Source: Chthoniobacterales bacterium (GTDB lineage: Bacteria; Verrucomicrobiota; Verrucomicrobiia; Chthoniobacterales; UBA10450). From it: a stretch of DNA of 52,769 nt. The position numbers and the translations under genes are program-made. The notes under the pieces are model-generated. The model ran no database searches, had not been told where the DNA came from, and saw nothing but the letters and a program-made list of their open reading frames with translations. Location: the NCBI GenBank assembly GCA_003244145.1, contig QHBM01000117.1:456-53224 (forward strand), written 5' to 3'. Positions 2-23,761 of the stretch are shown in pieces (position 1 is the first letter of the stretch; every line of letters begins with the position of its first letter).

Positions 2-1027
2 CCGACCTATGAGGACGAGAAGAAGCTCCTGAATTTTTCCGCGGCGCTGATGGAGAAATTATGCGCGCTGCCCGGAGTTCAGAATGCCGCCGTCGCTTCG
101 AGCCCGCCGCTCATGACCGGATGGGAAACTTCCTTCCTCCCCGAAGGCGCGCCGGAACCGGAGCCTGGCAAGATGCCTTCGGCGGAAATGAATGTCGTGA
201 CGGCTGGCTATTTCCAAACCATGAAGACGCCTCTGCTTCGCGGCCGGCCGTTCGAGGCGCAGGACACAAAGGACGTGCCGCCGGTCATTGTCATTGATCA
301 GCTCTTCGCGGATCGCTATTTCCCCGGAGGGGACGCAGTCGGAAAACGCATCCGAATGTCCACCGGCGAGAAAGGCGCCAAGGAATACCGGACCATCGTC
401 GGAGTGGTGCCGCACCTGAAGGTCTACGGCTTCGATGAAAACACGGTGTTGCCGCAGGCTTATCTGCCGATGACGCAACAACCGCAAACCGGCCTGGTGG
501 TGTTGCTGCGCACGACGCTCTCACCGAAATCGCTCGAGAAACCGGTGCGCGACATCGTGGCTTCTCTCGATCCGGCGCAACCAGCTTTCGAGTTCAAGAC
601 CATGCAGGAACGCGTCGAAGAAACGTGGGCCACGCCGCGCCTGATGAGTTTCCTCCTCGTCTGTTTCGCAATGCTGGCCTTGACGCTCGCGGTCGTCGGG
701 CTTTACGGCGTGATGGCGTTCAACGGCCTGCGGCGCATGCGCGAGATCGGCGTGCGGCTCGCCTTGGGAGCAACGCCCGCACAAATCCGCGCGATGATGT
801 TACGCCACGGCCTGCGCTTGCTCGGAGGCGGGTTGCTCCTCGGTTTTGCCGGCGCGTTCGGCCTCTCTCGCGTCATTCGCAGTTTGCTTTTTGGTGTGAG
901 CGTAAACGATCCGCTGATTTACGGCTCGGTCTCGCTCGTCTTGGGGTGCGCTGCGTTGTTCGCGTGTTGGGTTCCGGCGCGGCGCGCCTCCCGAGTCAAT
1001 CCGATGATCACGCTGCGCGCCGAATAA
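2..1027 (+). CDS. ADOP-family orphan permease, C-terminal part (array gene 1, cut by window edge)
   Basis: The reading frame is already open at base 2, so the gene begins upstream of the window; 341 residues remain. They cover most of the second MacB-like periplasmic domain (including the PPVIVIDQ and GKRIRM segments) and the C-terminal FtsX-like part with three hydrophobic segments. The protein ends NPMITLRAE, the same tail as its neighbours. Its closest relative in the window is the next gene: both have an aligned stretch running from LPGVQ(N/S)AA through the GW...PEGAP region to the R-G-R-x-F motif. Only 24 bp separate the two genes, so they are probably co-transcribed. The family assignment is firm; the transported substrate, if any, is unknown. 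Confidence 0.9.
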   Translation, partial: PTYEDEKKLLNFSAALMEKLCALPGVQNAAVASSPPLMTGWETSFLPEGAPEPEPGKMPSAEMNVVTAGYFQTMKTPLLRGRPFEAQDTKDVPPVIVIDQLFADRYFPGGDAVGKRIRMSTGEKGAKEYRTIVGVVPHLKVYGFDENTVLPQAYLPMTQQPQTGLVVLLRTTLSPKSLEKPVRDIVASLDPAQPAFEFKTMQERVEETWATPRLMSFLLVCFAMLALTLAVVGLYGVMAFNGLRRMREIGVRLALGATPAQIRAMMLRHGLRLLGGGLLLGFAGAFGLSRVIRSLLFGVSVNDPLIYGSVSLVLGCAALFACWVPARRASRVNPMITLRAE

Positions 1028-1029
1028 TG

Positions 1030-1044
1030 GCCTAACGAAAGGAG
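1030..1044 (+). promoter_or_regulatory. TCGTTAGGC-type 9-mer (minus orientation) running into the RBS of array gene 2
   Basis: GCCTAACGA at 1030-1038 is the reverse complement of the window's over-represented 9-mer. It is followed directly by AAGGAG, giving a clear Shine-Dalgarno sequence (GGAG at 1041-1044) seven bases before the ATG at 1052. The same arrangement occurs ahead of array gene 10. Confidence 0.6.
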
Positions 1045-1051
1045 AAATCAG

Positions 1052-3472
1052 ATGAACGATCTTCGCTTCGCCCTTCGCCAATTGCGGAAATCGCCCGGGT
1101 TCACTTTCATCGCCGTGCTTACGCTCGCGCTCGGCATTGGCGCGAACACCGCCATCTTCAGCGTGGTCAACGCCGTGCTCTTGCGGCCGCTGCCCTATCC
1201 GCAGCCGGAGCGTCTCGTTTATCTAAATGAAGTGAGCAACGGAGTGGATCAGTCGATTGCGCTGCCGGATTACGTCGATTGGCGGCACGACAGCACATCG
1301 TTCCAGCATCTCGCGCTCACCCGCCTTGAATCGCGCAATCTCAGCGGCATTGCCGGCCGCGAACCGGAGCGCGTCGCGGTGGCTTTTGTAACGGCGAACT
1401 TCTTCGACGTGATCGGGCTTCCCGCGCAAATCGGCCGCACCTTCAATGAAGACGAAGACAAGCCGGGCGCACCAGCGCTCGTTGTCCTCAGCGATCGCCT
1501 GTGGGATCGCGTCTTCCACCGCGATCCGCAAATCGTCGGACGCGCCGTCAATTTTCACGGTGCGCCGTTCACCGTCACCGGAGTGATGCCGCGCGAGATG
1601 GATTCACCGCACGGCGTCGACGCCTGGTTCTCGGTCATGCGCCGCAGCGCCAACCCCGGATGGCAGAATCGCGCCAACCATCCGATGTTCTTCGCCTGGG
1701 GCCGGTTGAAAGACGGCGTGACGCTCGAACAAGTGCGCAGCGAGATGAAGACAATCGCCGCGCGCCTCGAGAAAATGTATCCGGCGACGACCGCGGGCAC
1801 CGGCGTCAAAGTCAAACCGCTCCTCGAAAATCTGCTCGGCAGCTACCGCACGAGTCTCGCCTTACTCCTCGGCGCAGTCGCGCTCGTTTTGCTGGTCGCC
1901 TGCGCGAATCTCGCCAACCTCTTTGCCGCGCGCGGCGCTTCACGCGCGCGAGAGTTTGCCATTCGCGCGGCGATCGGCGCCACCCGCGGCCGCGTTATTC
2001 GGCAACTCTTGATCGAAAGCTTTACCATCGCCGCAATCGGAGGAGCGCTCGGTTTGCTCTTCGCCAATTGGGGACGCGATGCCTTGATCGCATTCGCTCC
2101 GGCCGGCGCCCCGCGTTTCGAAAATATCGGTTTCGATTTCCGCGTCCTCGCCTTCACCTTTCTGCTCGCTTCGCTCACCACGATTCTGTTCGGACTCTGG
2201 CCGGCATGGCAGGTGGCGCGCGCGGATATTCAGGTGGCACTGCAAGCCGGCTCGTTCGGCAGCTCGGAAACAAAAACCGCGCGACGCAGCCGGGACTGGC
2301 TCGTGATCGTCGAGGTCGCGTTGACGCTGCTGCTGCTCAGCGCGGCGGGCCTCGTTCTCAAAAGTTTCGCGCGCATGCAATCGACGGCACTGGGATTCGA
2401 GCCGGAGGGGATGCTCACCACGCGGATCGAATTGCCCTGGACGAAATATTCCGACGTGAAAACGATCCTGAATTTCACCAACGGATTGCTCGATGATGTC
2501 CGTCACCTGCCGGGAGTGCAAAGCGCCGCTATCTCATCGAACCCTCCCATGCTCAGCGGATGGCAGCTCGCTTTTCAACCCGAAGGCGCTCCTCCGACCG
2601 ATCCAAGCCAGCAGCCATCGGCGGACAACGAAGTGGTGCAGGGCGATTATTTCGCGACGCTTCAGACGAACCTGATCCGCGGCCGGACGTTCAACGAGCA
2701 TGACGGAAAAGATTCACCGCCGGTTGTGGTCATCGACCAGACCCTGGCCGAATTGACTTTCAAAGGACAGGATCCGTTAGGCAAAAGGCTCCTCGTCGAT
2801 ACGGAGTCCGACTCGTCGAACGGGCCGCGGCTCCATGAGATCATCGGCGTCGTGCCTCATCTGAAATTCCGCGGCTACGATGACGCCACGCCGACTCCGG
2901 CGTTCTTCTTCCCGCAGGCGCAGGTCGGGCGCACCAATCTGGTCCTGCTCGTCCGCGCGTCCGGCAACGTGAAACGGCTGGAGAAATCCGTGCGCGAGAT
3001 CATCACGCGGCTGGATCCAACGCAGCCGGTCTTCGATGTGCGCACGATGGAAGAGCGCGTTGCGGAAACGTGGGCGACGCATCGGCTGCTTTCGTTTTTG
3101 CTGGCGATCTTCGCTGGCCTGGCATTGCTCCTCGCCGCGGTCGGTTTGTATGGCGTGCTCGCTTACACCGCTTTCCGCCGCCTGCGCGAAATCGCCGTCC
3201 GCCTCGCCCTGGGTGCGCGCCCGGCGCACATCCGCGGATTAGTTCTTGGTCACGGTCTCCGGCTTTTCGGTATCGGCATTGCGGTTGGCGCGCTCGGAGT
3301 CGTCGCCTCATCGAATTTGATCCGAAGCTTCCTCTTCGGTGTCACGCCTCTCGATCCGCAAATCTATCTCGCAGTCGGTCTCATTCTTTCTCTTGTGACC
3401 ATTTTGGCCGCCTGGATTCCCGCGCGCCGCGCCTGTCGTGTCAACCCAATCGTAGCCTTGAGGGCCGAATGA
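1052..3472 (+). CDS. ADOP-family orphan permease (array gene 2)
   Basis: This 806-residue inner-membrane protein shows the family layout clearly. It has a short amphipathic N-terminus ([17 protein letters not shown]) and a first membrane helix at about 18-42 ([15 protein letters not shown]). A MacB-type periplasmic domain follows at about 50-250, then three helices at about 265-395 carrying the ACANLANL and [12 protein letters not shown] motifs. A fifth helix lies at about 413-440, a second periplasmic domain at about 445-675, and three final FtsX helices lead to the terminal NPIVALRAE. This is two MacB/FtsX halves fused in one chain. MacB-like proteins transmit ATPase motion to the periplasm, but there is no ATPase domain here and none nearby, so the mechanism is open. 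GGAG seven bases upstream supports the ATG. Confidence 0.92.
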
Positions 3473-3497
3473 GCTCACTCGCGTCGCAGCACAATCG

Positions 3498-3645
3498 GGG
3501 AGCGCACGCTTGCAGCGTGCTGGTTTCGGCATTCTGCCGAAACGAACTTTTGCAGTTCGGTAACCGATGGCCCAGTGCTGTCTCTGCACTGGGAAGTTCG
3601 CGAAGGTGGAACACCTTCGCCAGAACGCTGCAAGCGTGCGCTCCC
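3498..3645. repeat. Multi-hairpin intergenic repeat, family A copy 1
   Basis: A long outer inverted repeat (arms 3498-3523 and 3620-3645, 25 of 26 positions complementary, core AGCGCACGCTTGCAGCGT) encloses four smaller hairpins. These are 3524-3542 (stem TTTCGGC), 3543-3559 (stem CGAACT), 3571-3593 (stem CCCAGTGC) and 3600-3620 (stem GCGAAGGTG). The DNA or its transcript could therefore fold into a multi-branched structure. It fills most of the 206-bp gap between array genes 2 and 3. A second copy lies at 8651-8809. I see no target-site duplication and no coding capacity. It may be a REP/MITE-type element or a structured RNA that limits read-through. Confidence 0.85.
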
Positions 3646-3678
3646 AAAATTCAATTAGCACGCCGATTTTCCTGACCA

Positions 3679-6132
3679 ATGAACGATCTTCGTTACGCAC
3701 TGCGCTTACTTTGGAAGTCGCCCGCCTTTAGCCTGATCGCGATCGCGACGCTTGCGCTTGGGATCGGCGCGAACACCGCGATCTTTTCCGTGATCGAAAG
3801 CGCGTTGCTGCGTCCGCTGCCGTTTCCGAAAGCAGATCGGTTGGTCCGGCTTTATGAGACGTTCGATGAAAACGGCGCGCGCAGTAACGCGCTAAACCTG
3901 GCGGAAAAAACCGTTCGGCAATGGCGCGAGTACGGCACCGACATTTTCGAAGGGATCGGCGTCGCCACGGGCGCAAGCGTCACCGCGGCAAATCCCGGTC
4001 AGTCGGCGCAGAGTTTCCCGACTGCGCGCATCAGCGCCAACTTCCTGAACGTGCTCGGCCTGCAACCGGCGCTCGGAAGGAATTTCACCTCCGCCGAAGA
4101 TCAACCCGGCGGTCCGCACGTCGTGATCATCAGTCACGATTTCTGGCAACGGAATCTCGGCGGACGCGATGATGTGCTCGGGCAAAACATCAAACTCGAC
4201 GACGCTTCCTACACAGTCGTCGGCGTGATGCCGAAAACCTTTCGTCATCCTTATCGCGCTGAACTCTGGCTGCCGATCGCACTGAACTTCGCCGCCGGCG
4301 CGCAATCGAACCATTATCTTTACGGAGTCGCGCGGTTGCGTCCCGGCATCACCGTTGCGCAAGCAGACGAAGCGGTGCGCCGGATGTGTGCCGCGATCAA
4401 TCAGGCAGCGCCCGATCCGGCTAACGCGCCGCGCGCCCACATCATTCCGCTTCGCGACAGCTTCATCATGGATTTGCGTCCGAAGCTTCTGATCATCGCG
4501 GGCGCGGCGCTCTGTGCCCTGCTCGTGGCCGCGGCGAACTTCGCCGGCTTGATGCTCGCACGCGTGGTCGAGCGCGATGGCGAAATGGCGTTGCGTTCCG
4601 CGCTCGGCGCGACGCGCGGCCGTCTCATTAGAGAAGGTCTGATGCAAGCGCTCGTGCTCGCGGCCTTCGGAACAATTTTCGGGTTGCTCATCGCGGGCTG
4701 GCTTACGCCCGCGCTGGTCGCGCTTAGTCCCGAAGGCGCAGACGCAACCGGCAGCGCGATCCGCGAATTCGATTACGGCGTCCGACTTGATTGGCCAGTG
4801 TTCGCGTTCGCCGCGAGCGCGATGCTGCTCATCGGAGTTGGCTTTGGCTTGCTTCCGGCGTGGCGCGCGTCGCGGACGGATTTACGCAGCGCGCTTGGCA
4901 GCACAGGACGCGGAGCGACGCTCGATGGCGGGACGAGGCGTTTGCTCGGCGGACTCATCGTGGTGGAGATCGCGATCGCGGCCGTGTTGCTCATGGGCAG
5001 TCTCACGCTCACGCAATATTTCCGAAAGGTCGTGCGCGAACCGTGGGGTTTTTCCACCGATCACCGCGTCGTCTTCAACGCCATGCTTTCGGATCGTCTT
5101 TTTTCCTCGGCCGAAACGCGCATCCAAACGATCGACAAAACTCTGGCCGAGTTACGTGCGCTGCCCGGTGTCCGCTCCGCTGCCGTCACGGCGCCTGCTC
5201 CGATGGAAGCGGCGCGCGATCTGATGGGTTGCGTTCCGGAAGGCACTCAGCCGGCGGAACCGCGCGGCGTTTACACCGCCTATATGCGTGGCGCGGGGCC
5301 CGGATATTTCGCGACCATGGGCCAGCGCCTGCTGCGCGGACGCGAATTCGCGGAGACCGATCGCGCGGATGCGCCGCAGGTTTGCATCGTGAACGAATCG
5401 TTCGCGCGACGTTTTTGGCCGGGCCAGGATCCGTTAGGCAAAAGAGTGAAGCATGGACGCCTCGATAATCCACGTCCGTGGTACACCGTCGTTGGCGTGG
5501 TGGCGGACACGAAAGCGGTCGCCGATCCGCGCGACGGCGAGGTGGTCGGAACGGTTGCGCTCCCGTTGTCTCGCTGGCTTGCGATCGGCGGCGACGAAAT
5601 GACTTTTGTGGTAGAGAGCGCGAGTGAACCGAAATCTCTCGAAGGCGATTTGCGCCACGCCCTGGCGCGCGCCGATAAGCGACTGGCCGCTTACACGCTC
5701 GTTTCGCTCGACCAATCGGCAGCCGAATCGTGGGTAACCGAGCGTTTCCTTTTCGTTCTCGTGGCGTTGTTCGGAGCGCTCGGACTCGTTCTCGCTTCGA
5801 TTGGTGTTTACGGATTGCTGGCGCTGCAAGTGACGCGCCGCACGCGTGAATTTGGAATTCGCGTTGCGCTCGGATCGACCGCGACCGCGCTGATTCGCCT
5901 CGTGGCCGCGCAGGGTTTGCGGTTGCTCGCCATCGGCTTTCTTGCCGGCGGCATCGCAGCGTGGGCCGCCACGCGCATTGTCCATCATCAATGGCCGGAT
6001 GTTCCGGCAACCGATCCACTCATCTGGCTGGGTGCGGCCGTTGTTTTGTCGACTGGAGTCGCACTCGCTTCCTGGTTACCCGCGCGCCGCGCCTCGCGGG
6101 TCGATCCGATTATTGCCCTTCGGGCCGAATGA
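3679..6132 (+). CDS. ADOP-family orphan permease (array gene 3)
   Basis: This 817-residue member is the most divergent in its first membrane block. Where its neighbours read [12 protein letters not shown], it reads AAANFAGLMLAR, and the adjoining RKEIAIR-type loop is GEMALR. The N-terminal helix ([14 protein letters not shown]), both periplasmic domains and the terminal DPIIALRAE are intact. A serine protease-like or enzymatic motif is not visible. The second periplasmic domain contains DPLGKR, whose Leu is the TTA codon inside a CCGTTAGGC variant of the window's repeated 9-mer (5431-5439). It follows the family A hairpin and may start its own transcript. No strong Shine-Dalgarno sequence precedes the ATG, but the start aligns with all paralogues. 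Confidence 0.9.
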   Translation: MNDLRYALRLLWKSPAFSLIAIATLALGIGANTAIFSVIESALLRPLPFPKADRLVRLYETFDENGARSNALNLAEKTVRQWREYGTDIFEGIGVATGASVTAANPGQSAQSFPTARISANFLNVLGLQPALGRNFTSAEDQPGGPHVVIISHDFWQRNLGGRDDVLGQNIKLDDASYTVVGVMPKTFRHPYRAELWLPIALNFAAGAQSNHYLYGVARLRPGITVAQADEAVRRMCAAINQAAPDPANAPRAHIIPLRDSFIMDLRPKLLIIAGAALCALLVAAANFAGLMLARVVERDGEMALRSALGATRGRLIREGLMQALVLAAFGTIFGLLIAGWLTPALVALSPEGADATGSAIREFDYGVRLDWPVFAFAASAMLLIGVGFGLLPAWRASRTDLRSALGSTGRGATLDGGTRRLLGGLIVVEIAIAAVLLMGSLTLTQYFRKVVREPWGFSTDHRVVFNAMLSDRLFSSAETRIQTIDKTLAELRALPGVRSAAVTAPAPMEAARDLMGCVPEGTQPAEPRGVYTAYMRGAGPGYFATMGQRLLRGREFAETDRADAPQVCIVNESFARRFWPGQDPLGKRVKHGRLDNPRPWYTVVGVVADTKAVADPRDGEVVGTVALPLSRWLAIGGDEMTFVVESASEPKSLEGDLRHALARADKRLAAYTLVSLDQSAAESWVTERFLFVLVALFGALGLVLASIGVYGLLALQVTRRTREFGIRVALGSTATALIRLVAAQGLRLLAIGFLAGGIAAWAATRIVHHQWPDVPATDPLIWLGAAVVLSTGVALASWLPARRASRVDPIIALRAE

Positions 6133-6141
6133 ACAAAAACA

Positions 6142-6204
6142 GCGACGAGTGGCGAGTAACAAGTGACGAGCAAAAGTTTCTGACCGCTGACTTCTGATCT
6201 CTGA
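6142..6204. repeat. Degenerate GTGACGAG-like short repeats in the spacer before array gene 4
   Basis: The 75-bp spacer contains loosely repeated units of the form (G)CGACGAGTGG / CGAGTAACAAGTGACGAG, then TGACCGCTGACTTCTGATCTCTGA. A related run on the opposite strand is at 49741-49776. No function can be assigned. No clear RBS is visible ahead of the following ATG. Confidence 0.5.
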
Positions 6205-6207
6205 TTT

Positions 6208-8628
6208 ATGACCGATCTCCGCTTCGCCTTTCGCCAGCTTTTGAAATCGCCCGCGTTCACTCTTCTCGCCGTGATCACGCTCGCGCTCGGCATTGGAATG
6301 AACACGGCGATCTTCAGTTTGATCCACGATCTCTTTCTGCGCGGGCTGCCGTTCTCCGATCCGGACCGGCTCGTCATCCTTCAGGCCGAAGCGAAGGACC
6401 GAAATCTCGATGGCCTGCCGATGTCGGTTCCGCGCTTCTGGCATTTCCGCGATGGGCAGACTGTCTTTTCGAATCTCGCCGCGGATACCGGTGCCGGTTT
6501 TATTATGACTGGCATCGGCGATCCCATTCAGCTCAACGGCGCGAACGAAACGGCGAACTACATGGAGACGCTCGGCGTTCGCCCAATTCTGGGCCGCCTC
6601 TTTCTGCCCGAGGAAGAAATGAAGGCGGACGTCGCGTTGGTCAGCGCAAACTTCTGGCGCAACCGTTTGAATTACGATCCGCAAGTGATCGGACACAGCA
6701 TCACGCTCAACGGCGTACCGACCACGATCGTGGGAGTGATCCCGAATCCGCCGGTCGCGTGGTTCGGCCGCGATCTTGAGGTCGTCACCGCGAAGCCGTT
6801 CGAGGTGGCGGGGCTCACCAACGAACGGATTCAGCGCGGCGTTAGTTTTCTGCGCGTCGTCGGACGGCTGAAACCCGGCGTGACGATCGACCAGGCGCGC
6901 GCCGCCATGCCCTCTCTGCAGCAGGGTTACAAGCGGGAGCGTCCCGACAATGCCGATAATTCGTGGTCGCCCGTGATTAAATCTGCGGCAGAAGATGCGA
7001 CCGGCGACCTGCGTCCTGCGTTCTTCACTCTGCTCGCGGCGGTTGGTTCCGTCTTGCTGATCGCGTGCAGCAACGTCGCGAATCTACTGCTCGTTAGGTT
7101 TACGGGGCGGCGGCGCGAGATCGCGTTGCGTATGGCTCTCGGCGCGACGCGCCAAAGTGTCGTTAGGCTCTTTGTTTTCGAAAGCACTCTCGTCAGCCTG
7201 CTCGCTGGTGTCGTCGGCACCTGTCTGGCGCTTTGGGTCGTCTCCGTCATTCCGAAACTCGCGGTGAACAATCTGCCGCTCGAAGGCGGCATCTCGCTGA
7301 ATGCTCCGGTGCTCTGGTTCACGCTGGGCATTTCGCTCCTTACCGGCGTCGCCATGGGTTTGTATCCGGCATGGCAAAGTTCCCGGGCCGATCTCGTGGA
7401 TGGATTGAAGGACGGCGGCCGCGCCATGACCGGCAGTCTTGGCCAGCAGCGTCTTCGCCGTGGCTTGGTCGCGGCCCAGGTTGGACTTTCGGTCGTTCTC
7501 CTTGCGGGCGCCGCGTTGCTCATCGCCAGTTTCGTTCGGCTCAGCCGGCAGCCTTCCGGTTTCAAGTCCGATAATCTTTGGATCGGCGGAGTGGGCCTGC
7601 CGCCAGCGCAATATCCCGATCCGGAAGCGCGCGCCCGTTTCGTCGATCGTCTTTTGTCCGAATTGAAAAATACGCCCGGGGTCGAAGCGGCCACTACCAG
7701 CGACGGCGTGCCCTTGAACGGAAACAGATCCAGCTCGCCCTACGCCCGCGCCGATGGAAATCCCGTTCCATTGAATCAGCGTCCACTTGGTTTGACCCGC
7801 AGTATTTCGCCCGGTTTTCTCAAGACATTCAGCATTCCGCTTCTGGCCGGCCGCGATTTCGACGAGCGCGACGGCGGGGACAAACCGCTGGTGGTAATCC
7901 TCAGCAAATCGACCGCGCAACATCTCTTCCCCAACGAAGATCCAATCGGGAAGCGGATTTTTTTCGGCACGGATAACAACACCGGTCTGTCGGCGGAAGT
8001 GGTGGGAATCGTCGGCGACGTGCGGTCGGTCCGGCTCGATCTCCCGAACGACGTGGAATTTTACCGGCCGTGGCCGCAACGCTCGGGTCCATTCTTCTGG
8101 GTCACGATCCGAAGCGCGGTCAAGGCCGAGGCAGCCGCGGGAGTGGTGCGAAGCGCGCTGAGTAAGATCGACCGCGGGCTTCCAATCATTCAGCCGAATA
8201 CGATGGAGGAGATCGTGGATCAGTCGTTAGGCCAGCGCCGGTTGACGATGACGTTGCTCGGTGTGTTCGCCAGCATAGCCCTGGTCCTCGCCATGGTCGG
8301 GATCTACGGAGCGGTCGCTTATACGGTAGAGCAACGCACTGGAGAAATCGGCGTCCGCATGGCGCTCGGCGCCCAAACGGCGGACGTGCTGCGACTGGTC
8401 GTTAGGCAAGGCATGACGCCGGTCGTGATCGGACTCGTCCTTGGCCTCGCCGCGTCGCTTGCGCTCGGCCGGCTGCTCACCGCGCAGCTTTACGAAGTCT
8501 CTGCGAACAACCCTGCGCTGCTCGGCGCCACGTCGGTCACGCTCGCGATCGTCGCACTCCTGGCCTGCTTAATTCCCGCCCGGCGCGCGAGCCTCGTCAA
8601 TCCGATCGAAGCACTCCGTACCGAATGA
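6208..8628 (+). CDS. ADOP-family orphan permease (array gene 4)
   Basis: An 806-residue full-length member starting MTDLRFAFRQLLKSPAF. Compared with the array norm, the first helix has an unusual Met (GIGMNTAIF) and the first membrane block reads ACSNVANLLLVRF. The periplasmic segments have features in common with array gene 5, such as a (Q/E)RG...GRLKPGV or GRMKPV stretch and a LPxxxExYxP motif, so the two probably arose from one duplication. The protein ends NPIEALRTE. The gene is remarkable for holding three exact copies of TCGTTAGGC (7160, 8224, 8399) plus TCGTTAGGT at 7091. These are read as Val-Arg with AGG or Ser-Leu-Gly with TTA. The family is certain; the biological role is unknown. 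Confidence 0.92.
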   Translation: MTDLRFAFRQLLKSPAFTLLAVITLALGIGMNTAIFSLIHDLFLRGLPFSDPDRLVILQAEAKDRNLDGLPMSVPRFWHFRDGQTVFSNLAADTGAGFIMTGIGDPIQLNGANETANYMETLGVRPILGRLFLPEEEMKADVALVSANFWRNRLNYDPQVIGHSITLNGVPTTIVGVIPNPPVAWFGRDLEVVTAKPFEVAGLTNERIQRGVSFLRVVGRLKPGVTIDQARAAMPSLQQGYKRERPDNADNSWSPVIKSAAEDATGDLRPAFFTLLAAVGSVLLIACSNVANLLLVRFTGRRREIALRMALGATRQSVVRLFVFESTLVSLLAGVVGTCLALWVVSVIPKLAVNNLPLEGGISLNAPVLWFTLGISLLTGVAMGLYPAWQSSRADLVDGLKDGGRAMTGSLGQQRLRRGLVAAQVGLSVVLLAGAALLIASFVRLSRQPSGFKSDNLWIGGVGLPPAQYPDPEARARFVDRLLSELKNTPGVEAATTSDGVPLNGNRSSSPYARADGNPVPLNQRPLGLTRSISPGFLKTFSIPLLAGRDFDERDGGDKPLVVILSKSTAQHLFPNEDPIGKRIFFGTDNNTGLSAEVVGIVGDVRSVRLDLPNDVEFYRPWPQRSGPFFWVTIRSAVKAEAAAGVVRSALSKIDRGLPIIQPNTMEEIVDQSLGQRRLTMTLLGVFASIALVLAMVGIYGAVAYTVEQRTGEIGVRMALGAQTADVLRLVVRQGMTPVVIGLVLGLAASLALGRLLTAQLYEVSANNPALLGATSVTLAIVALLACLIPARRASLVNPIEALRTE
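7160..7168 (+). repeat. TCGTTAGGC 9-mer
   Basis: Exact copy inside array gene 4, read GTC GTT AGG CTC (Val-Val-Arg-Leu). The Arg uses AGG, whereas paralogues mostly use CGN codons at this conserved position. Confidence 0.7.
8224..8232 (+). repeat. TCGTTAGGC 9-mer
   Basis: Exact copy inside array gene 4, in frame as TCG TTA GGC (Ser-Leu-Gly), using the TTA leucine codon. Confidence 0.7.
8399..8407 (+). repeat. TCGTTAGGC 9-mer
   Basis: Exact copy inside array gene 4, read GTC GTT AGG CAA (Val-Val-Arg-Gln), again with AGG arginine. Confidence 0.7.
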
Positions 8629-8650
8629 GTTTTTGCGTTTCGAATCGCAT

Positions 8651-8809: not shown

Positions 8810-8857
8810 AACAGCTGTTTCAGCACTCACACAATCACAAATCGAATTGAAATCCTT

Positions 8858-11272
8858 ATGAATGATTTTCGCTACGCTCTCCGCCAACTTCTGAGGCAAC
8901 CCGGCTTTACCATTCTCGCGGTCGTCGCTCTGGCGCTTGGTATCGGTGCGAACACTGTCCTGTTCTCGGCAATCAATACGCTGTTTCTGCGCCCACTCTC
9001 CTATCCGGAGCCGCAACAGCTGGTGCGCGTCTGGGGCTCGTTCCCCGAACGCGGCCTCGACCGCACCAACGTCTCCTGGCCGCGTTACACCGCCTGGCGC
9101 GATCAGCAGCAAAGCTTCACCGAGTTCTCCGCGCAATCATTTACCGGATTTGTTCTGACCGGACGCGGCGATCCGGAGAATTTGAACGGGGTCCGCGTGA
9201 CCGAGAATTTTTTCCGTGCGCTTGGCGTCCAACCGCTCCTCGGCCGCGTTTTCAATCCTGACGAAGATCGGCCCGGCGGCGCGAATGTAGCGGTGCTTAG
9301 CCATACGTTTTGGCAGAAGAACTTCGGTGGCGACCCGAACATTCTCGGCCAGGCGATCACGTTGAACGGCACACCATTCACTGTCATCGGCGTCATGCCG
9401 GCAACGCTGAAATTCCCATTCGCGCAAAGCCAGGTCTGGCTGCCGCGCGTGTTCGAACAGGAAGGATTGCCGCCGGAGATCATCGAGCGCGGCACCGGAT
9501 ATCTAACCATCCTCGGCCGGATGAAACCGGTTATGACGCGCGCCCAGACTGACGAACAAATGCATATGATCGATCGGCGTTATCAGACCGCGAACCCCGA
9601 AAAGGTGGACGCGAAGGCGGGCATCAGCGTGGTGTCATTTCACGAAGATCTCGTCGGTCCCCAGCGGCCGATGATGCTCACGCTTTTCGCGGCGGTCGGC
9701 TGCGTCCTGCTCGTCGCCTGCGCCAACGTCGCGAATCTTTTGCTGGCGCGCTTTACCGCGCGGAGAAAGGAAATCGCGATCCGGACCGCGCTCGGCGCCA
9801 CGCGTGCGCGAATCGTTTTCCAATTTCTCGCTGAGAGCGTGCTCACCGCTGGAATCGCCGGCGTTCTCGGCGTGCTCCTAGCCGTTTGGGGACTCGATCT
9901 GCTCAAGAAGGTCGCTGAAAATTTCATCCCGCGCGTGCTCGAAATTTCTCTCGATCTGAATGTGCTCGGTTTCGCCGTCGCGCTTTCGCTTCTGACCGGT
10001 CTCGTGCTCGGGCTCGTCCCGGCTTTGCACGCTTCGCGGAGCGATCCGATCGATTCGTTGAAAGATTCCTCGCGCGGCACAACCGGACGGCAGGCGGGAC
10101 GACTCCGCGCCGGCCTTCTCGTTGCAGAGGTGGCGCTCTCACTGGTACTGCTCGTCGGCGCGGTTTTGCTGATCGATAGCTTCCGCCGGTTGCAAAACGT
10201 CGAGCCCGGGTTCCGGGCCGAAGGCATCACGACATTTTTCGTCGGCCTTCCGCCTGGCTCATATCCGGACGTCGAGCGGCAGGCCTTGTTCTTTCAAAAC
10301 GCGATCGAAAAAATCAAGACACTTCCAGGCGTGACCCACGCCGCGGCCGGCTCTAATCTTCCGGCGGCCGGCAACGGAAACACGCGCTCACCTGCTGCGG
10401 TCGAAGGACGCCCGCTCCCGCCAGTGAGCGATCGCACCATCATCGTGCGCTCGACGATATCGCCGGGATTTCTCGAAACGCTTGGCGTCCCAATTAAACA
10501 GGGCCGGGATTTCAACTGGCGCGACCGCGCCGGCGCGCCGGATGCCGTCATCATCAACGAGACCCTGGCGAAAAAGCTTTTCCCGGGCGAAAACCCGATT
10601 GGTCATCGCCTCATTACCGGCATCGCGTCGATTCCACGTGAGATCGTCGGCGTCTCCGGCGATGTGCGGATGGAAGATCTTTCGTTGCCGCCCGGGGCGG
10701 AAATGTATTACCCCTCCGCGCAACTCGACGGCGCATTTCTTAGCGTAGTCGTTCGGAGTACGCGCCCGGCCGCGAGTCTCCGCGCCGAACTCGTCGCGGC
10801 GATTCACGCGCTCGATCCCGGTTTGCCCATCGATCAAGTGCAGCCCTACACTGAACTCCTCGCACAAGCGTCCGCCGATCGGCGTCTCTCGATGTATTTA
10901 CTCGGGGGCTTCGCCGGGCTCGCCCTCGCGCTGGCCGGCATGGGAATTTACAGCGTCATCGCTTACGGCGTGGCGCAACGCACGAATGAATTCGGAATCC
11001 GTTTCGCGCTCGGCGCCGCCGCGCGCGACGTTATTGGCCTGGTCATGAAGGAAGGATTGCGCCTCGCCCTTGTCGGACTCGTCGTCGGCCTGGCGCTCTC
11101 GTTCGGCGTCACGCGCCTGATGCGGCGTTTGCTTTTCGAAGTAAGCGCCACCGACCCGTGGCTCTACAGCGGCGTCGCGCTTTTCATTTGCAGCGTTGCC
11201 GCGTTCGCCTGTTTCGTTCCCGCGCTGCGCGCAACGCGGATCGATCCCATGCAGGCGCTCCGTGCGGAATAA
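8858..11272 (+). CDS. ADOP-family orphan permease (array gene 5)
   Basis: An 804-residue member starting MNDFRYALRQLLRQPGF. The first membrane helix lies at about 18-42, the [13 protein letters not shown] block at about residue 285, and the FtsX helices at the end finish DPMQALRAE. Its first periplasmic domain has a distinctive R-V-W-G-S-F-P-E-R-G segment. The second contains NPIGHRLITG where others have (D)PLGKR. Only 18 bp separate its stop from the next gene, so genes 5 to 9 (gaps of 18, 4, 57 and 16 bp), and perhaps 10, look like one transcription unit beginning after the family A hairpin. I see no strong RBS; the ATG is chosen because it aligns with the conserved N-terminus. Confidence 0.92.
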   Translation: MNDFRYALRQLLRQPGFTILAVVALALGIGANTVLFSAINTLFLRPLSYPEPQQLVRVWGSFPERGLDRTNVSWPRYTAWRDQQQSFTEFSAQSFTGFVLTGRGDPENLNGVRVTENFFRALGVQPLLGRVFNPDEDRPGGANVAVLSHTFWQKNFGGDPNILGQAITLNGTPFTVIGVMPATLKFPFAQSQVWLPRVFEQEGLPPEIIERGTGYLTILGRMKPVMTRAQTDEQMHMIDRRYQTANPEKVDAKAGISVVSFHEDLVGPQRPMMLTLFAAVGCVLLVACANVANLLLARFTARRKEIAIRTALGATRARIVFQFLAESVLTAGIAGVLGVLLAVWGLDLLKKVAENFIPRVLEISLDLNVLGFAVALSLLTGLVLGLVPALHASRSDPIDSLKDSSRGTTGRQAGRLRAGLLVAEVALSLVLLVGAVLLIDSFRRLQNVEPGFRAEGITTFFVGLPPGSYPDVERQALFFQNAIEKIKTLPGVTHAAAGSNLPAAGNGNTRSPAAVEGRPLPPVSDRTIIVRSTISPGFLETLGVPIKQGRDFNWRDRAGAPDAVIINETLAKKLFPGENPIGHRLITGIASIPREIVGVSGDVRMEDLSLPPGAEMYYPSAQLDGAFLSVVVRSTRPAASLRAELVAAIHALDPGLPIDQVQPYTELLAQASADRRLSMYLLGGFAGLALALAGMGIYSVIAYGVAQRTNEFGIRFALGAAARDVIGLVMKEGLRLALVGLVVGLALSFGVTRLMRRLLFEVSATDPWLYSGVALFICSVAAFACFVPALRATRIDPMQALRAE

Positions 11273-11290
11273 TTAACAAGCCAAATAAAT

Positions 11291-13861: not shown

Positions 13862-13865
13862 AAAA

Positions 13866-16271: not shown

Positions 16272-16328
16272 TGATCTCGCCAGAACTTCGAGCCTTTTGT
16301 TAAGCCCAAATACCAGCAAGGAAATAAA

Positions 16329-18731
16329 ATGTTAAACGACATCCGCTACGCTTTTCGCCAATTGATAAAATCTCCCGGCTTTACCGCCGTGACTGTCCTC
16401 ACGCTCGCGCTCGGCATCGGAGCCTGCACCGCGATTTTTTCGGTCGTCAATGTCGTGCTCTTGCGCCCGCTCGATTATCCCGAGCCAGGCCGAATCGTCG
16501 TCATCCGGGAAACGAATTTCCCCGAGTTCCCGGAGTTTTCGGTTTCGCCGCCTAATTATTTGGACTGGGAAAAGCAGACGAAGTCGTACGAGAAACTCGC
16601 CGCCTACTCGGGATCGCGGATCAATCTCACCGGCGACGGCGAGCCGCAGCAGCTCGTCGGTATAAAAGCGACCGCGCAATACTTCGACGTTTATGGAATC
16701 AAGCCGGCGCTCGGCCGGACCTTCCTTCCCGAAGAAGATGCGCCGGGGAAAAATCACGTCGCGGTTTTGAGTTATCCGTTCTGGCAGCGCGTCTTTGGCG
16801 GCGCGGCTGATGTGATCGGCCGCCCGATTCAGCTCAACGGCGAACCATACACCGTGGTGGGCGTGGCGCCGCTCGGTTTTGGCGTTGCGAGTAGAGTGGA
16901 CGCGTGGATGCCGATGGCGTTCGAGCCGAAAGAAGTTTCGAACGATGCGCGTGGCGGGCATTACCTCAACGTCGTGGGCCGATTGAAACCCGGTGTGACC
17001 GTGGCGCAGGCCGAAGCCGAGCTGAAGGTCCTGGCCGCGCAACTCGCGCAGCAATATCCCGATTCAAACAAAGGGTGGGGCATCTTCATGATGCCGCTCC
17101 AGGATTTCAGTGTGCGCGATGTCCGCACGGTGCTCTACACGTTGCTCGGCGCGGTCGGTTGCGTGCTCCTCATTGCCTGCGCCAATATCGCCAATCTGCT
17201 ACTCGCTCGCGCGACCGCGCGGCATCGCGAGATTTCTATTCGCGCCGCGCTCGGCGCCAGTCGCGCCCGGCTCATTCGCCAACTTCTGACCGAGAGCGTC
17301 ATGCTCGCATTGTGCGGAGGCCTGGCCGGAGTTTTGTTCGCACGCTGGGGACTGGACGCCCTTCTCGCTCTTGCTCCTCCGAATCTTCCGCGCGTTTCCG
17401 ACATTCATCTCGATGCGGGCGTTCTCATTTTTTCGCTCGGGTTGAGTGTGATCACGGGCCTTGTCTTCGGCATCGCGCCCGCGTGGCTGGCGGCGCGCGC
17501 CGATGTGAACGAGGCGCTGAAGCAAGGCTCGCGCGGATCCACCGAAGGCGGCGCGCGCGGCCGCTTGCGAAGCGCGCTCGTAATTCTTGAGGTGACTTTT
17601 GCGTTGATGCTCCTCGGCGGCGCGGGTCTGCTCGCGCGCAGTTTCATGCAGCTCGCTCACGTCGATCCGGGGTTCACCCCGGAAAACGCTACGGTTCTCC
17701 GGCTCTCGCTCCCGCAGAAAAAATACGCGTTACCCGAACAGCAAACCGCCTTTGCAGACACATTGCTCGAACGCGTGAAGACATTGCCGGGTGTGCAAGC
17801 CGTTGGCCTTACGCATTCGATGCCGCTGGTGGGCGATTACGTCCTCGGCTTCAACATCGAAGGCCGCGCCGCCGTTGCGCCGAGCGATCTACCGAGCACC
17901 AATTATTACGCGGTCACGCCGGATTATTTTCGGGCCATGGGAATCCGCCTCGTGCGCGGCCGCGTTTTCACGGCGCGGGATGACGCCAAGGCGCCGCGGG
18001 TCGCGGTCATCAACGAGATGATGGCCCGCCAGCATTTTCCCAATGAAGATCCGATCGGGAAACGGATCAACATCACCAATGGTCCCGACACCTGGCGCGA
18101 AATCATCGGCATCGTGGGCGACATCAAGCAATACGGCGTCGATAAGGCGACCAGCAGCCAATCGTACGAGCCATTCGCGCAAGTGCCGTTCGGCTCGCTC
18201 AATGTCGTCATTCGCACGGGCGGTTCGCCGGCCGCGCTTCTCGGCGCGATCCGTCCCGCCGTTTATGCCGTGGACAAAGACCAGCCGATCGGCGCCATTC
18301 GTCCGCTCGAAGAAATCATGGCCGATAGCATCGCGCGGCAGCGGTTCGCGATGACGCTCCTGACGGTCTTCTCGCTGGTCGCGCTCGTGATCGCGGCGGT
18401 CGGCATCTACGGCGTGATGGCTTACAGCGTGGTGCAACGCACGGGCGAGTTCGGTATCCGGATGGCGCTTGGCGCGCAACAGCGCGATGTCCTTCGTCTC
18501 GTTCTCGCGCAAGGTGGGAAACTCGTGGGGATTGGTCTGGTCATCGGTCTCGCGGCCACGCTGGCCGCGTCGCGCGCCATGGGCTCGATGCTCTTCAACA
18601 CCAGCGCGCAAGATCCGCTCACGCTTGGAACAATTACGCTGGTGCTCGCCGTGGTCGCGCTCATCGCTTGTCTTCTGCCGGCCAGTCGCGCCACAAAAGT
18701 GAATCCAATCGAAGCGCTCCGCGCAGAATGA
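16329..18731 (+). CDS. ADOP-family orphan permease (array gene 8)
   Basis: An 800-residue full-length member (MLNDIRYAFRQLIKSPGF...NPIEALRAE). In the first helix the usual GANTAIF is GACTAIF, with a Cys. The first periplasmic domain carries FPEFPEFSVSPPNYLDW, specific to this copy. The second half reads LVILEVTFALMLLGGAGLLARSF. AAGGAAATAA sits ahead of the ATG and gives a reasonable but weak ribosome-binding site. The preceding spacer (57 bp) contains no hairpin. No enzymatic motif is visible, and the function beyond membrane permease-like architecture is unknown. Confidence 0.92.
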   Translation: MLNDIRYAFRQLIKSPGFTAVTVLTLALGIGACTAIFSVVNVVLLRPLDYPEPGRIVVIRETNFPEFPEFSVSPPNYLDWEKQTKSYEKLAAYSGSRINLTGDGEPQQLVGIKATAQYFDVYGIKPALGRTFLPEEDAPGKNHVAVLSYPFWQRVFGGAADVIGRPIQLNGEPYTVVGVAPLGFGVASRVDAWMPMAFEPKEVSNDARGGHYLNVVGRLKPGVTVAQAEAELKVLAAQLAQQYPDSNKGWGIFMMPLQDFSVRDVRTVLYTLLGAVGCVLLIACANIANLLLARATARHREISIRAALGASRARLIRQLLTESVMLALCGGLAGVLFARWGLDALLALAPPNLPRVSDIHLDAGVLIFSLGLSVITGLVFGIAPAWLAARADVNEALKQGSRGSTEGGARGRLRSALVILEVTFALMLLGGAGLLARSFMQLAHVDPGFTPENATVLRLSLPQKKYALPEQQTAFADTLLERVKTLPGVQAVGLTHSMPLVGDYVLGFNIEGRAAVAPSDLPSTNYYAVTPDYFRAMGIRLVRGRVFTARDDAKAPRVAVINEMMARQHFPNEDPIGKRINITNGPDTWREIIGIVGDIKQYGVDKATSSQSYEPFAQVPFGSLNVVIRTGGSPAALLGAIRPAVYAVDKDQPIGAIRPLEEIMADSIARQRFAMTLLTVFSLVALVIAAVGIYGVMAYSVVQRTGEFGIRMALGAQQRDVLRLVLAQGGKLVGIGLVIGLAATLAASRAMGSMLFNTSAQDPLTLGTITLVLAVVALIACLLPASRATKVNPIEALRAE

Positions 18732-18747
18732 ACATCGCAAAATTATA

Positions 18748-21207
18748 ATGAACGACATCCGATACGGCTTGCGCCAACTCTTCAAGCATCCCGCCTTCAC
18801 AATCGTCGCCGTGCTCACCCTCGCGCTCGGCATCGGTGCGAACACCGCCATCTTCAGCGTGGTCAACGCCGTCCTCCTCAAGCCGCTGCCGTTTCCCGCG
18901 CCCGATGAGCTCATCGCTGTCGGCATGACCGATAGCCGGCAGAAGGGAACGCAGACCGAACTGGGCTCGCTCTCATATCCGGACTTCTTCGACTTCCGCG
19001 ACCAAAACCGCACGCTGGCCAGCAGTGCAGTGTATCGCGATCGCTCCTTCGCTCTGACGAGCGACGAAGGAGCAACCAGCCTGCACGGCGTAAAGGTAAG
19101 TGCGGAATTCTTCGATGTGCTCGGGATCAAGCCGAAGCTGGGACGCGCTTTCAGCCGCGATGACGATCAGGCTGGCGGTGGAACCGGCGGCTTCAAAGTC
19201 ATCATCAGCGACGATTTCTGGAAAAAACATTTCGGCGGCGACGCGAACGTCCTCGGACGCACGATCCTGCTCGATCGCCGCCAATACACTGTGATCGGCG
19301 TCGTGCCCGCCGGTTTTCAATTCCCGATCCAGAATGAGGCACTCGATTTCTACGTCAGCATTGCGGAAGATGCGGCCAACCCGGACGGCTCGAAACCCCA
19401 GACGGAACAGCGCGGCAATCACACCCTTGAGGCTATCGCACGGCTGAAGCCCCGCGTCACGATCGCGCAGGCGCAGGCGGATTTGGAGGCCATTGCCGCG
19501 GCGTTGGCGAAGCAATACCCAGAATCGAACACTCATTTTGGCGTGGCGTCCAAGTCGTTGCGTGAGGAAATGGTGGGCGATGTGCGCACCGCGTTGTACA
19601 TCCTTTTTGGCGCGGTCTTGTGCGTACTGCTGATCGCGAACGCCAACGTCGCGAATCTTCTCCTCGCGCGAGCCTCGGCCCGCGGAAAGGAGATGGCGCT
19701 GCGCGCAGCGATGGGCGCGAGTCGCGGCCGCATCGTCCGTCAATTATTAACGGAAAGTCTTCTGCTTTCGGGCTTGGGTGGCGCGTTCGGACTGCTCATC
19801 GCGCAATGGGGAACTGAAGCGCTGATCCAGACCGTGCCGCAAAACATTCCGTGCATTAGCACCATCCAACTCGATGGGTCCGTGCTCGGGTTTACTTTGT
19901 TCGCCTCGCTGGTCACCGGCGTCATCTTCGGACTCGTGCCGGCCTGGCAGGCCTCGCATGTCGATCTCAACAGCGCACTGAAATCAGGGACCCGCACCGG
20001 CGGCGGCGGAGAGGGCAAAGGCCGGGTGCGCAATGCGCTCATCATGGCGGAGGTGGCAGTCGCTCTCGTATTGCTCATCTCAGCCGGACTCTTGATCCAG
20101 AGTTTCGCGCGACTCGGCCGGGTGCAGCCCGGGGTGCGGACGGAACGCCTCCTCACCGCGCGCATTTCGTTGCCCGAAGTCGCCTATCCAAAGAACGAAA
20201 ACATCACCGCGTTCCTTAACCAATTCCTGCCGCGGATCCGCGCGTTGCCCGGCGTCGAGTCGGCCAGCACCATCGTGCCGCTGCCCTTGAGCGGCAGCAA
20301 CATGGTGACTTCGTTCGACATCGAAGAACGCCCGCTGCCGGATGGTCAGCGCGCGGGTGCGCCAGTCCGGATCATTGCCACGGACTACTTCAAAACGATG
20401 GGCATCCCGCTGCGGCAAGGCCGCGTCTTCGCCGAAAAAGAACAAATTGATTCCGCGCCCGTGGTCATCGTGAACGAGCGCTTTGCCGCCAAATATTTTC
20501 CAGGTCAGAATATTATAGGCAAACGGATCATGCCCGGTTTTTCCGTGGACGATAAGGGAGAAAAGATGCGGGAAATCGTGGGCGTGGTCGGGAATGTGAA
20601 ACACCTCTCACTGAGAAATGAGGACTCGCCGGAGATGTACCTGCCGCAAACGCAAATCCCCTTCAATATCCTGGCACTCGTCATCCGGACGAGTGTTTCA
20701 AATCCGAGCGCGCTCACCAATTCGGTCCGGAAGGAGCTGACCGCGCTCGACGCGACAATTCCTCTGACCAACGTGCGGGTGTTCGACGAATACATTTCGC
20801 GCTCGCTGGCTCGGCCGCGCTTCAACGCGCTCTTGCTTTCGATCTTCGCCGGGACCGCACTGCTGCTTACCGCGATTGGGATTTACGGCGTGATGGCTTA
20901 CTCGGTCGCGCAACGCACGAGCGAAATCGGAATCCGCATCGCGCTCGGCGCCGGGAAATCCTCGATCTTTCGCCTGGTCGTCGGCCAGGCTATGACACTC
21001 GTCGGCATCAGTCTGGTCGTCGGCGTGGCCGGTGCCTTTGCCGCCACCCGGTTGTTGAACAGCCTGCTCTTCGGCGTCGGCGCTTCCGATCCGGTCACGT
21101 TTGTCGCCATCGTGCTGCTCGTCTCTGCGGTTGCGTTTATTGCCGCGTGGCTGCCCGCTCGACGCGCGACCCGGGTTGACCCAATCATCGCTTTACGCGC
21201 CGAATGA
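18748..21207 (+). CDS. ADOP-family orphan permease (array gene 9, close paralogue of gene 10)
   Basis: An 819-residue member starting [17 protein letters not shown], 16 bp after gene 8. It is very similar to gene 10 throughout. Both have the Gly-rich [10 protein letters not shown] / [10 protein letters not shown] segment in the first periplasmic domain, NANVANL in place of CANVANL in the first membrane block, LSGSN followed by SFDIEERP in the second domain, and an almost identical last 130 residues ending DPIIALRAE. Yet the DNA of that shared end differs at many third codon positions. The duplication is therefore not recent and the protein sequence has been kept by selection. Confidence 0.93.
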
Positions 21208-21230
21208 AAACGAAGCCACTAATCTTGCAG

Positions 21231-21261
21231 GGTGGATCGGGCGCTCCGCGCGCGATCCACC
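21231..21261. repeat. Hairpin in the spacer between array genes 9 and 10
   Basis: GGTGGATCG (21231-21239) pairs perfectly with CGATCCACC (21253-21261) around a 13-base GC-rich loop. There is no T-run, so it is not a classic terminator. It is unrelated in sequence to the family A elements. Confidence 0.6.
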
Positions 21262-21278
21262 TCAACAATCACATCTTA

Positions 21279-21292
21279 GCCTAACGAGAGGG
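21279..21292 (+). promoter_or_regulatory. GCCTAACGA 9-mer running into the RBS of array gene 10
   Basis: GCCTAACGA (21279-21287) is followed by GAGGGG, so the last bases of the 9-mer begin a purine-rich Shine-Dalgarno sequence. That ends seven bases before the ATG at 21299. The arrangement duplicates that of array gene 2 and decides the start of gene 10. Confidence 0.6.
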
Positions 21293-21298
21293 GTTCAT

Positions 21299-23761
21299 AT
21301 GATGACCGACATTCGCTACGGAATTCGCCAGCTGCTCAAGCATCCTGGCTTCACGCTGGTCGCCGTGCTCACGCTCGCGCTCGGGATTGGCGCGAATACC
21401 GCCATTTTCAGCGTGGTCAACGCGGTGCTCTTAAAGCCGCTGCCGTTCCCGGCGCCCGAGCAACTCGTAGCCATGGGCGGCGTTGATCTGAACGCGACCG
21501 CATCGCCTCCCAGACTCGACTCGCTCTGCTATCCGGATTTCTTCGATTTCCGCGAACAGAACCGCAGTTTTTCCAGTATGGCTATTTATCGCAATCGCAC
21601 CCTCGCGCTCGTGGACGAGAAGGGAGCGCAAAGCGTCAGCGGAGAAAAAGTAAGCGGTGAATTCTTCGACGTGCTTGACATCAAGCCGATGCTTGGTCGC
21701 GCCTTTGGCCGCGCGGATGAGCAGGCGGGCGGTGGACCCGGCGGTCTCAAAGTTGTCGCAAGTTATGGATTTTGGCAGAGCCATTTCAATCACGCCGATG
21801 ACGTGATCGGCCGTGTCCTGATGCTGGATGGCCGTCCTCACACGGTGATTGGTGTAATGCCGCAAGGGTTCCAGTTCCCCATCCAGACCGAATCCATCGA
21901 GCTTTACACCACTATCGCCGAGGATGCGTCGACTCCCGATGGGAGCACGCCCATCACGCAGCAGCGTGGCAGTCACGGCTTGGAAGGAATCGCTCGGGTC
22001 CAAGCGGGCGTGCCGCTGGCCCAGGCGAACCTCGAGCTGCGAACGATCGCGGCGGTCCTGGAAAAAAAGTATCCGGACACGAACACAAAATTTAGCGCCG
22101 GGTCGCAGCCGCTCCGGGATGAAATGGTGGGAGACGTCAGGACCGCGCTCTACGTTTTGTTTGGCGCGGTTGCCTGTTTGCTGCTCATCGCGAACGCCAA
22201 TGTCGCCAATCTCATGCTCGCGCGTGCGTCGGTGCGCGGGAAAGAGATTGCCCTGCGCGCGGCCCTCGGCGCCAGCCGCGGACGGATTGTTCGGCAATTG
22301 CTCACAGAGAGCGTGCTTCTCGCCGGGCTCGGCGGGCTGCTCGGGTTGGTCGTGGCGCAATGGGGCACGGAAGCCCTCGTCGCGGCGGTGCCGCAGAATA
22401 TTCCACGGGTCAGCGCAATTCGGTTGGATGGAGCGGTGCTGGGTTTTACCCTCCTGCTTTCGCTTGTGACCGGCATCGTTTTCGGCCTCGTTCCCGCCTG
22501 GCAGGCATCGCATGTCGATCTTAACACCGCTCTGAAATCGGGCACTCGCGGCGCAGGTGGCGTGGAGGGAAAACATCGGGTGCGCAATGCCCTGGTCATG
22601 ACCGAGGTGGCGCTCGCCTTGATCCTGCTCATTTGCGCAAGCTTGTTGATTCAAACTTTCGCGCGCCTCGGGCGCGTTCAAACCGGCATGAAGACCGAAC
22701 GTCTTTTCACGGCACGAATTGGACTTCCTGAAGCCGCCTACCCCAAGCCGGAAAGTATCATCGCATTTTTTGATCAGCTTATGCCGCGGCTCCGGACGAT
22801 TCCCGGCGTTGAATCCGTGACGGCCGTATGGCCGCTTCCTCTCAGCGGAAGCAATAACGTCAGCTCTTTTGACATCGAGGAACGTCCCATGCCCGAAGGA
22901 CAACAACCGGACAGCCCCATGCGGATCGTGGGCCCGGATTATTTCAAGACCATGGGCATTCCAGTCCGGCAAGGCCGTGGCTTCGAGGAAACCGACCAGT
23001 TCAAGTCTCTCCCGGTCGTGATCGTGAACGAGCAATTCGTGCAAAAGTTTTTCCCCGGTCAAAGTGTCGTTGGCAAACACATCAAACCCAGTTGGGGCAT
23101 TGGCGACGAAAAGCCGCTCATGCGCACCATCGTTGGCGTTGTCGGCAACGTGAAGCACCGCACGCTCAGCATGGAGTTTACGCCGGAAGTCTACATGTCG
23201 ACCTCACAGATCCCGATGGATAATGTGTCGATCGTTGCGCGCACGAGTGTATCCAATGCGGCGGCCATTACTTCCGCGGTCCGTTCCGAACTAGCCGCCC
23301 TTGATCGCAACATACCTCTGGTGCGGGTCCGCGTTTTTGACGAATACCTTGCGCGCGCGCTAGCCCGGCCGCGCTTCAACGCCTTGTTGCTTTCGATTTT
23401 TGCCGGTACCGCGTTGCTCCTGACGGCGATCGGAATTTACGGCGTGATGGCTTATTCCGTTTCGCAACGCACGAGTGAGATCGGGATCCGCATCGCCTTG
23501 GGCGCCGGCAAGAGATCCATCTTTCGCCTTGTCGTCGGCCAGGCCATGACAATCGTCGCGCTTAGTCTGGTGGTAGGAATCGTGGGCGCGCTCGCCGCCA
23601 CGCGCTTGTTAAACAGCCTTCTCTTTGGCATCGGAGCGTCCGATCCGGTCACGTTCATCGCGATCGTTCTGCTTGTCTCCGCCGTCGCCTTTATTGCAGC
23701 GTGGCTACCGGCGCGACGCGCGACGCGGGTCGATCCCATCATCGCCTTGCGTGCCGAATAA
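21299..23761 (+). CDS. ADOP-family orphan permease (array gene 10, last of the array)
   Basis: An 820-residue protein starting [18 protein letters not shown]. The frame is open back to 21101 inside gene 9, but the RBS and family alignment place the start at 21299 (or 21302). It is the near-twin of gene 9, most alike in the C-terminal FtsX block from [16 protein letters not shown] to DPIIALRAE. It ends four bases before the stop of a convergent methyltransferase gene, which marks a sharp right-hand border to the array with no terminator room. A large opposite-strand open frame (21431-23158) is a codon-bias shadow of this gene. Confidence 0.93.

Follow-up and report, generated by a model that had tools for sequence, protein, structure and literature searches.

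A tandem array of ten ADOP permeases in a Chthoniobacterales bacterium, probably the permease-only operon of an ABC system with two operons under sigma-54 control

Permeases of the ADOP family (TIGR03434) are, to our knowledge, described as acidobacterial orphans that are essentially never encoded beside an ABC ATPase gene, and a search of the literature on ADOPs returned a single mention in passing. What is known of MacB, LolCDE and FtsEX suggests that envelope-active compounds, lipids or peptides are exported or extracted, and we know of no description, for any of these three, of a modular arrangement in which one ATPase pair works with many permeases. Sharing of this kind is established for the group II ECF transporters, importers in which a common pair of ATPases powers many substrate-specific membrane proteins whose genes lie elsewhere, while in the Bce systems BceS takes its signal from BceAB.

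In MacB, the permease of the MacAB-TolC system (type VII ABC, mechanotransmission), the segment between TM2 and TM3 contains a major coupling helix, and a C-terminal minor one also contacts the ATPase (PMC5985334). HAAS-PadR systems, including FtsX/MacB fusions, have also been described (PMC11237479), and sigma-54 promoters before FtsX-type permeases and MacB-type ATPases (COG0577/COG1136) in Opitutia are reported on a statistical basis (PMC12316311).

The window, that is, the whole stretch of 52,769 nucleotides that was analysed (G000:C42:456-53224), represents nearly all of a 53224-bp contig, C42, of a draft genome (G000; 3.63 Mb, 173 contigs, 88%-complete). An initial annotation, made from the letters alone, had described at least ten head-to-tail paralogues of roughly 800 residues in what looked like a verrucomicrobial chromosome; both points are borne out, the closest named array-carrying relatives being Spartobacteria / Chthoniobacterales soil MAGs and positions 2-23761 of the plus strand holding nine complete ADOPs and a tenth partial one. 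The features are as follows:

2..1027, plus strand: ADOP 1, C-terminal 341 residues; the N-terminal portion is encoded by the 455 bases preceding the window and by contig C143
1052..3472, plus strand: ADOP 2, 806 aa, TIGR03434 925 bits; orthologues in four of six same-genus arrays
3679..6132, plus strand: ADOP 3, 817 aa, 783 bits; orthologue (83%) in the adaptor/ATPase operon of G016, a genome of a sister genus
6208..8628, plus strand: ADOP 4, 806 aa, 881 bits; related in the tree to an adaptor-operon permease of G017
8858..11272, plus strand: ADOP 5, 804 aa, 947 bits
11291..13861, plus strand: ADOP 6, 856 aa, 765 bits; its group has several further copies in the genome
13866..16271, plus strand: ADOP 7, 801 aa, 1001 bits; without close orthologue in the six sister genomes
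16329..18731, plus strand: ADOP 8, 800 aa, 1044 bits; the best-conserved member, with an orthologue in each of the six sister arrays and another in the operon of G016
18748..21207, plus strand: ADOP 9, 819 aa, 988 bits
21299..23761, plus strand: ADOP 10, 820 aa, 967 bits; 71% identical to ADOP 9
23766..24527, minus strand: convergent methyltransferase gene (Pfam), the right boundary of the array; it adjoins the array end in G001 and G002 as well

The starts of ADOP 7 (13866) and ADOP 10 (~21299) were re-assigned, the longest-ORF starts being wrong, and the intergenic gaps within the array measure 4-91 bp, except for 206 bp 5' of ADOP 3 and 229 bp 5' of ADOP 5. Elsewhere in the window, at 45237-47281 on the minus strand, lies a gene for a TPR-like-repeat membrane protein which is apparently split by a frameshift near 46121-46208, where one ORF ends within the beginning of the following one, which is in a different frame.

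The assignment to the ADOP family, with paired MacB-like domains and FtsX helices, also holds. Each complete member has two MacB_PCD and two FtsX matches (the ADOP 1 fragment has one of each), the duplicated architecture that is typical of the family, and with TIGR03434 (NCBIfam) the nine score 765-1044 bits at a cut-off of 622.3; the fragment reaches 381 bits, and ADOP 1 joined across two contigs (804 residues) reaches 953 bits, above the cut-off. No ABC_tran match, and thus no fused ATPase domain, was found in the array ADOPs, and the MacB model NF007826 gives them 45-148 bits, far below its cut-off of 966. The array members are ordinary for the ADOP family.

A sequence-profile search against solved structures matched both halves of the ADOPs to MacB permease structures, e.g., 5lil and 5nik, and in the AlphaFold2 model of ADOP 8 (pLDDT 86, pTM 0.76) the protein forms eight membrane helices and two periplasmic domains, with further short helices at 299-307, 705-713, 393-398 and 793-799, the positions expected for coupling helices. 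Major and minor coupling helices, as in type VII ABC systems, are kept in both halves of all ten array ADOPs, and the tail motif that had been noticed at first reading, which is indeed present in 10/10, is the C-terminal minor coupling helix. Within the array, coupling segments are 0.59 and 0.50 identical and periplasmic domains 0.30-0.32; in ADOPs encoded with ATPases the values for coupling segments are about equal (0.57 and 0.54-0.58) and the periplasmic domains again lag behind. Had contact with an ATPase been lost, the coupling sites would be expected to relax.

The array does continue past the left edge of the window, as had been predicted, but no further than the remainder of ADOP 1. 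A sequence of 27 bp that relatives conserve ahead of their arrays has a single match in G000, on contig C143, beside a sigma-54-type promoter, which is followed on the minus strand by a gene for a 345-residue Toastrack/DUF4097 protein (PF13349, with a signal-peptide-like start) and then by the N-terminus of ADOP 1. The end of C143 and the start of C42 overlap by 20 identical bases, with ADOP 1 reading in frame, and because C143 thus joins C42 in frame, the array operon can be described as the Toastrack gene, its first gene, plus exactly ten ADOPs ending at 23761. Contig C158 was also considered as the direct left neighbour of C42 and rejected in favour of C143, since it shows no end overlap and relatives have a Toastrack gene at that place. 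A periplasmic partner or client is one possible role of the Toastrack protein.

No ATPase, adaptor or regulator gene is present anywhere in this Toastrack and ten-ADOP operon, and immediately upstream, where an ATPase and a membrane-fusion gene might have been met with, the Toastrack gene and the promoter are found instead. The description of the array as orphan is accordingly right for the operon but not for the genome, where a co-regulated operon, now divided between contigs C158 and C79, encodes an adaptor, two ATPases and, judging by relatives, a two-component system. C158 carries in order a kinase fragment, an HlyD-type adaptor, ATPase 1, two ADOPs and the start of a third, and C79 an ADOP, ATPase 2, three ADOPs and a secreted protein; in G007, G005, G006 and G001 these contents form one operon, located on a different contig from the array, and in relatives genes for an NtrC-type activator and the kinase lie upstream where the contig reaches far enough. 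Both ATPases keep their Walker A, signature and Walker B motifs. The search for MacB/LolD-type ATPases that had been suggested for this genome thus returns ATPase 1 and ATPase 2, together with further LolD/MacB-like ones, including a LolD-like ATPase on C148.

Within the genus ATPase 1 is 96% identical and the NtrC 95.5%, the corresponding figures for ADOP 8 and for a single control ABC ATPase being 87% and 88%. Taken by ortholog, ATPase 1 (L002 2364-3107; G001-G007 orthologues) is conserved at 93-99%, above the adaptor, kinase, permeases and flanking genes. Conservation of this degree would be expected of a hub protein that has to fit many partners.

In G002, G004, G005, G006 and G007 the partner operon is accompanied by the cognate NtrC gene. 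This gene is not found in the G000 assembly, in which C158 begins inside the kinase gene; we infer from the relatives that it falls between contigs here. Three other NtrC-type genes are assembled in G000, and they are only 35-40% identical to the cognate one. One of these, at 38345-39742 on the minus strand of the window, was considered as the cognate activator and rejected, being ~40% identical to the NtrC linked to the adaptor operon of relatives. It lies 15 kb from the array, and the G000 assembly has just two more full-length activators of the NtrC type.

Array and partner operons are both preceded by sigma-54 promoters of the form TGGCA-N7-TGCA (-24/-12) and, 102-104 bp before the -24 element, by the enhancer core GGGACNNNGAAATCCC or close variants of it. 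The exact core combined with the promoter pattern has 12 matches in 19 genomes, every one at an ADOP locus (array or adaptor operons within the genus, plus the G009 array, from another genus, and the G023 adaptor operon; in G003 the match lies 1.3 kb before the first array ADOP), and a reversed control of the same pattern gave zero matches in the same 19 genomes. When the two promoter sets were compared at equal distance, the mean best 16-mer score was 13.7, versus 9.1 (sd 0.17) for shuffled upstream regions. RpoN is also encoded in G000, so that the -24/-12 promoter, upstream enhancer and RpoN of a sigma-54 regulon are found in this genome, the cognate activator gene being known from its relatives. 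The apparent orphan status of the array is thus an effect of viewing one operon, and the array belongs to a regulon with two ATPases and an adaptor. The Opitutia systems mentioned above have the same promoter type, the same kinds of permease and ATPase and belong to the same phylum, but the portion of that source drawn on here describes no ADOP array, enhancer or trans-acting ATPase (PMC12316311).

Two other modes of control were considered and rejected. A vague likeness of the enhancer to a cobalamin riboswitch was not borne out by Rfam, which gave nothing worth retaining for the copy in G007, the element lies upstream of the promoter, and an Rfam search of the window returned no riboswitch match. 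As for PadR, the genome has four PadR genes, none of them on C42, C143, C158 or C79. The proposed check for PadR near other copies was positive, a PadR gene being located just upstream of three non-array ADOPs on C113, C39 and C71 (L096, L088, L091), of which the C39 ADOP is broken by a stop or frameshift; these three fit the HAAS-PadR systems, in contrast with the array and partner operon, which are without PadR (PMC11237479).

In G016, components of both operons occur in one run: activator, kinase, promoter, adaptor, ATPase 1, an ADOP, ATPase 2, Toastrack and eight more ADOPs, among which are orthologues of array ADOP 8 (77%), ADOP 3 (83%), ADOPs 9/10 (75%) and the group of ADOP 6. In a tree of 68 ADOPs, array and ATPase-linked members are interleaved, with at least nine forced locus changes on well-supported branches, and on this comparison of sequences the array ADOPs share common ancestry with ADOPs encoded beside ATPases. 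The rule of no adjacent ATPase holds for the array operon but not for the G016 orthologues or for C158/C79.

The acidobacterial-orphan description of the family likewise contrasts with the relatives of the array, which in Verrucomicrobiota, and at one Acidobacteriota locus, L074 (adaptor, ATPase 1, two ADOPs, ATPase 2, NtrC and kinase), share their operons with an adaptor and two ATPases. The L074 components are 50-76% identical to their Verrucomicrobiota counterparts, the ADOPs 37-38%, and therefore the component set is not confined to Verrucomicrobiota. Across the order, ADOPs above the cut-off were found in 46 of 147 genomes and the adaptor in 41 of these 46, while no genome of the 147 has the adaptor without ADOPs; the five ADOP-bearing genomes without a detected adaptor gene look ADOP-poor and are drafts, and the p value of this co-occurrence (3e-31) is not to be taken literally, as genome relatedness inflates the statistic. 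Per-genome ADOP tallies in this survey extend to about six scored candidates and are lower bounds; the copy numbers given here do not come from them. Further tandem arrays, each with some six ADOPs or more, were also seen in Acidobacteria gp1 AA131 (L079) and Opitutia fen_1467 (L072), the former starting with the end of an ATPase 1-like gene.

The array is conserved in the genus and so is no singularity of G000: its operon recurs in six same-genus genomes, with from 6 (G004) to 19 (G005) ADOP copies. That the copies had diverged while remaining intact was a correct observation, pairwise identity within the array being 0.29-0.71. Nine of the ten have orthologues in at least three of the six same-genus genomes with dN/dS of 0.06-0.18, i.e., under purifying selection, and for this reason the array members are considered not to be decaying, none of the ten showing decay. 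At the 3' end of the G007 array, an ADOP remnant with its middle deleted (L031, G007:C18:172177-172615) records the loss of a copy.

We consider that the array is probably one of two operons, the permease-only one, of a sigma-54-controlled ABC system in which two shared ATPases act in trans, so that one motor set probably drives many interchangeable permeases. The idea of a trans-acting ATPase had been raised at the outset; good, co-regulated candidates now exist for it, though they are two and not one, and their docking on the array ADOPs is presumed from the conserved coupling helices. The other LolD/MacB-like ATPases of the genome, whether LolD itself or the LolD-like ones of other MacB-type operons (that on C148 among them), could serve instead, but only ATPase 1 and ATPase 2 have the enhancer and promoter of the array and sit with orthologous ADOPs in the sister genus, making this an unlikely source of energy. 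A store of spare tandem duplicates, turned over by unequal crossing-over and for the most part without separate roles, would suit the range of 6-19 copies in the genus, the split copies in the G006 and G007 arrays, the remnants in G007, G001 and G004 and the want of a close orthologue for ADOP 7; the low dN/dS and the orthologues of nine of ten members speak against it, as does the age of most members, which differ from one another by more than 50%, and we regard it as highly improbable.

The array ADOPs may also be thought of as ATPase-free sensors or scaffolds of the envelope whose signals go to the histidine kinase. Inspection by eye of nine orthologues shows this kinase to have two membrane helices separated by a loop of ~8 residues and no periplasmic sensor domain, as is the case in BceAB-BceS; like BceS, it may respond to a partner in the membrane, the ADOPs perhaps, although BceB has ten helices and one large extracellular domain, and an ADOP eight helices and two periplasmic domains. 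The operon has no ATPase gene, and its first gene encodes a Toastrack protein, a domain tied to membrane-stress signalling (PMC11237479). Against this, the two major coupling helices and the C-terminal minor one are conserved to the degree seen in ATPase-linked ADOPs (cf. PMC5985334), and the same proteins adjoin ATPases in G016. We therefore judge this reading rather improbable; of the sensor role first suggested, the purely sensory form is weakened, and sensing beside pumping is possible, given the short kinase loop.

In the system with two shared ATPases that we favour, the NtrC-type regulator and the membrane histidine kinase would activate both operons through the common enhancer and -24/-12 promoter. 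The partner operon would then supply the HlyD-type adaptor, two MacB/LolD-like ATPases and several ADOPs, and the array operon the secreted Toastrack protein and ten further ADOPs, each a fused MacB-type dimer with two periplasmic domains, eight membrane helices and two coupling helices. The shared ATPases would bind at the coupling helices and power mechanotransmission in any ADOP to which they are bound, so that one engine, putatively exporting in tripartite fashion, would serve permeases differing in periplasmic recognition of putative substrates such as envelope-active compounds or lipids.

Compared with MacAB-TolC, the coupling helices are alike and the partner operon has an HlyD-type adaptor, but there is no fused ATPase, the permease is a fused dimer, the ATPases are two and separate, and the permeases are many (PMC5985334). 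In the DarBCD darobactin exporter (NF038007, NF038008, NF038010), too, the ATPase is separate from the adaptor and from a long permease; ATPase 1, ATPase 2 and the adaptor match the DarD and DarC models far below the curated cut-offs, and DarBCD has one permease where the system described here has many. At somewhat less than an even chance, these genes constitute a type VII ABC system in which two ATPases and one adaptor, under one sigma-54 enhancer, serve a variable set of at least a dozen fused-dimer permeases at separate loci and power the orphan ADOP family. By analogy, and with the same reserve, it may be regarded as the MacB-family counterpart of the group II ECF transporters, which differ in being importers of an unrelated fold whose sharing of ATPases is established, while the sharing here is proposed.

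ADOPs are a large and unexplained permease family of soil Acidobacteriota and Verrucomicrobiota, named for a missing ATPase. They now have candidate ATPases, a candidate adaptor, a dedicated sigma-54 enhancer and a two-component system, making their energy source directly testable. If one ATPase pair does serve many permeases, mechanotransmission ABC systems would be modular, and this would explain how the permease repertoire can vary from 6 to 19 copies in one genus with the motor unchanged.
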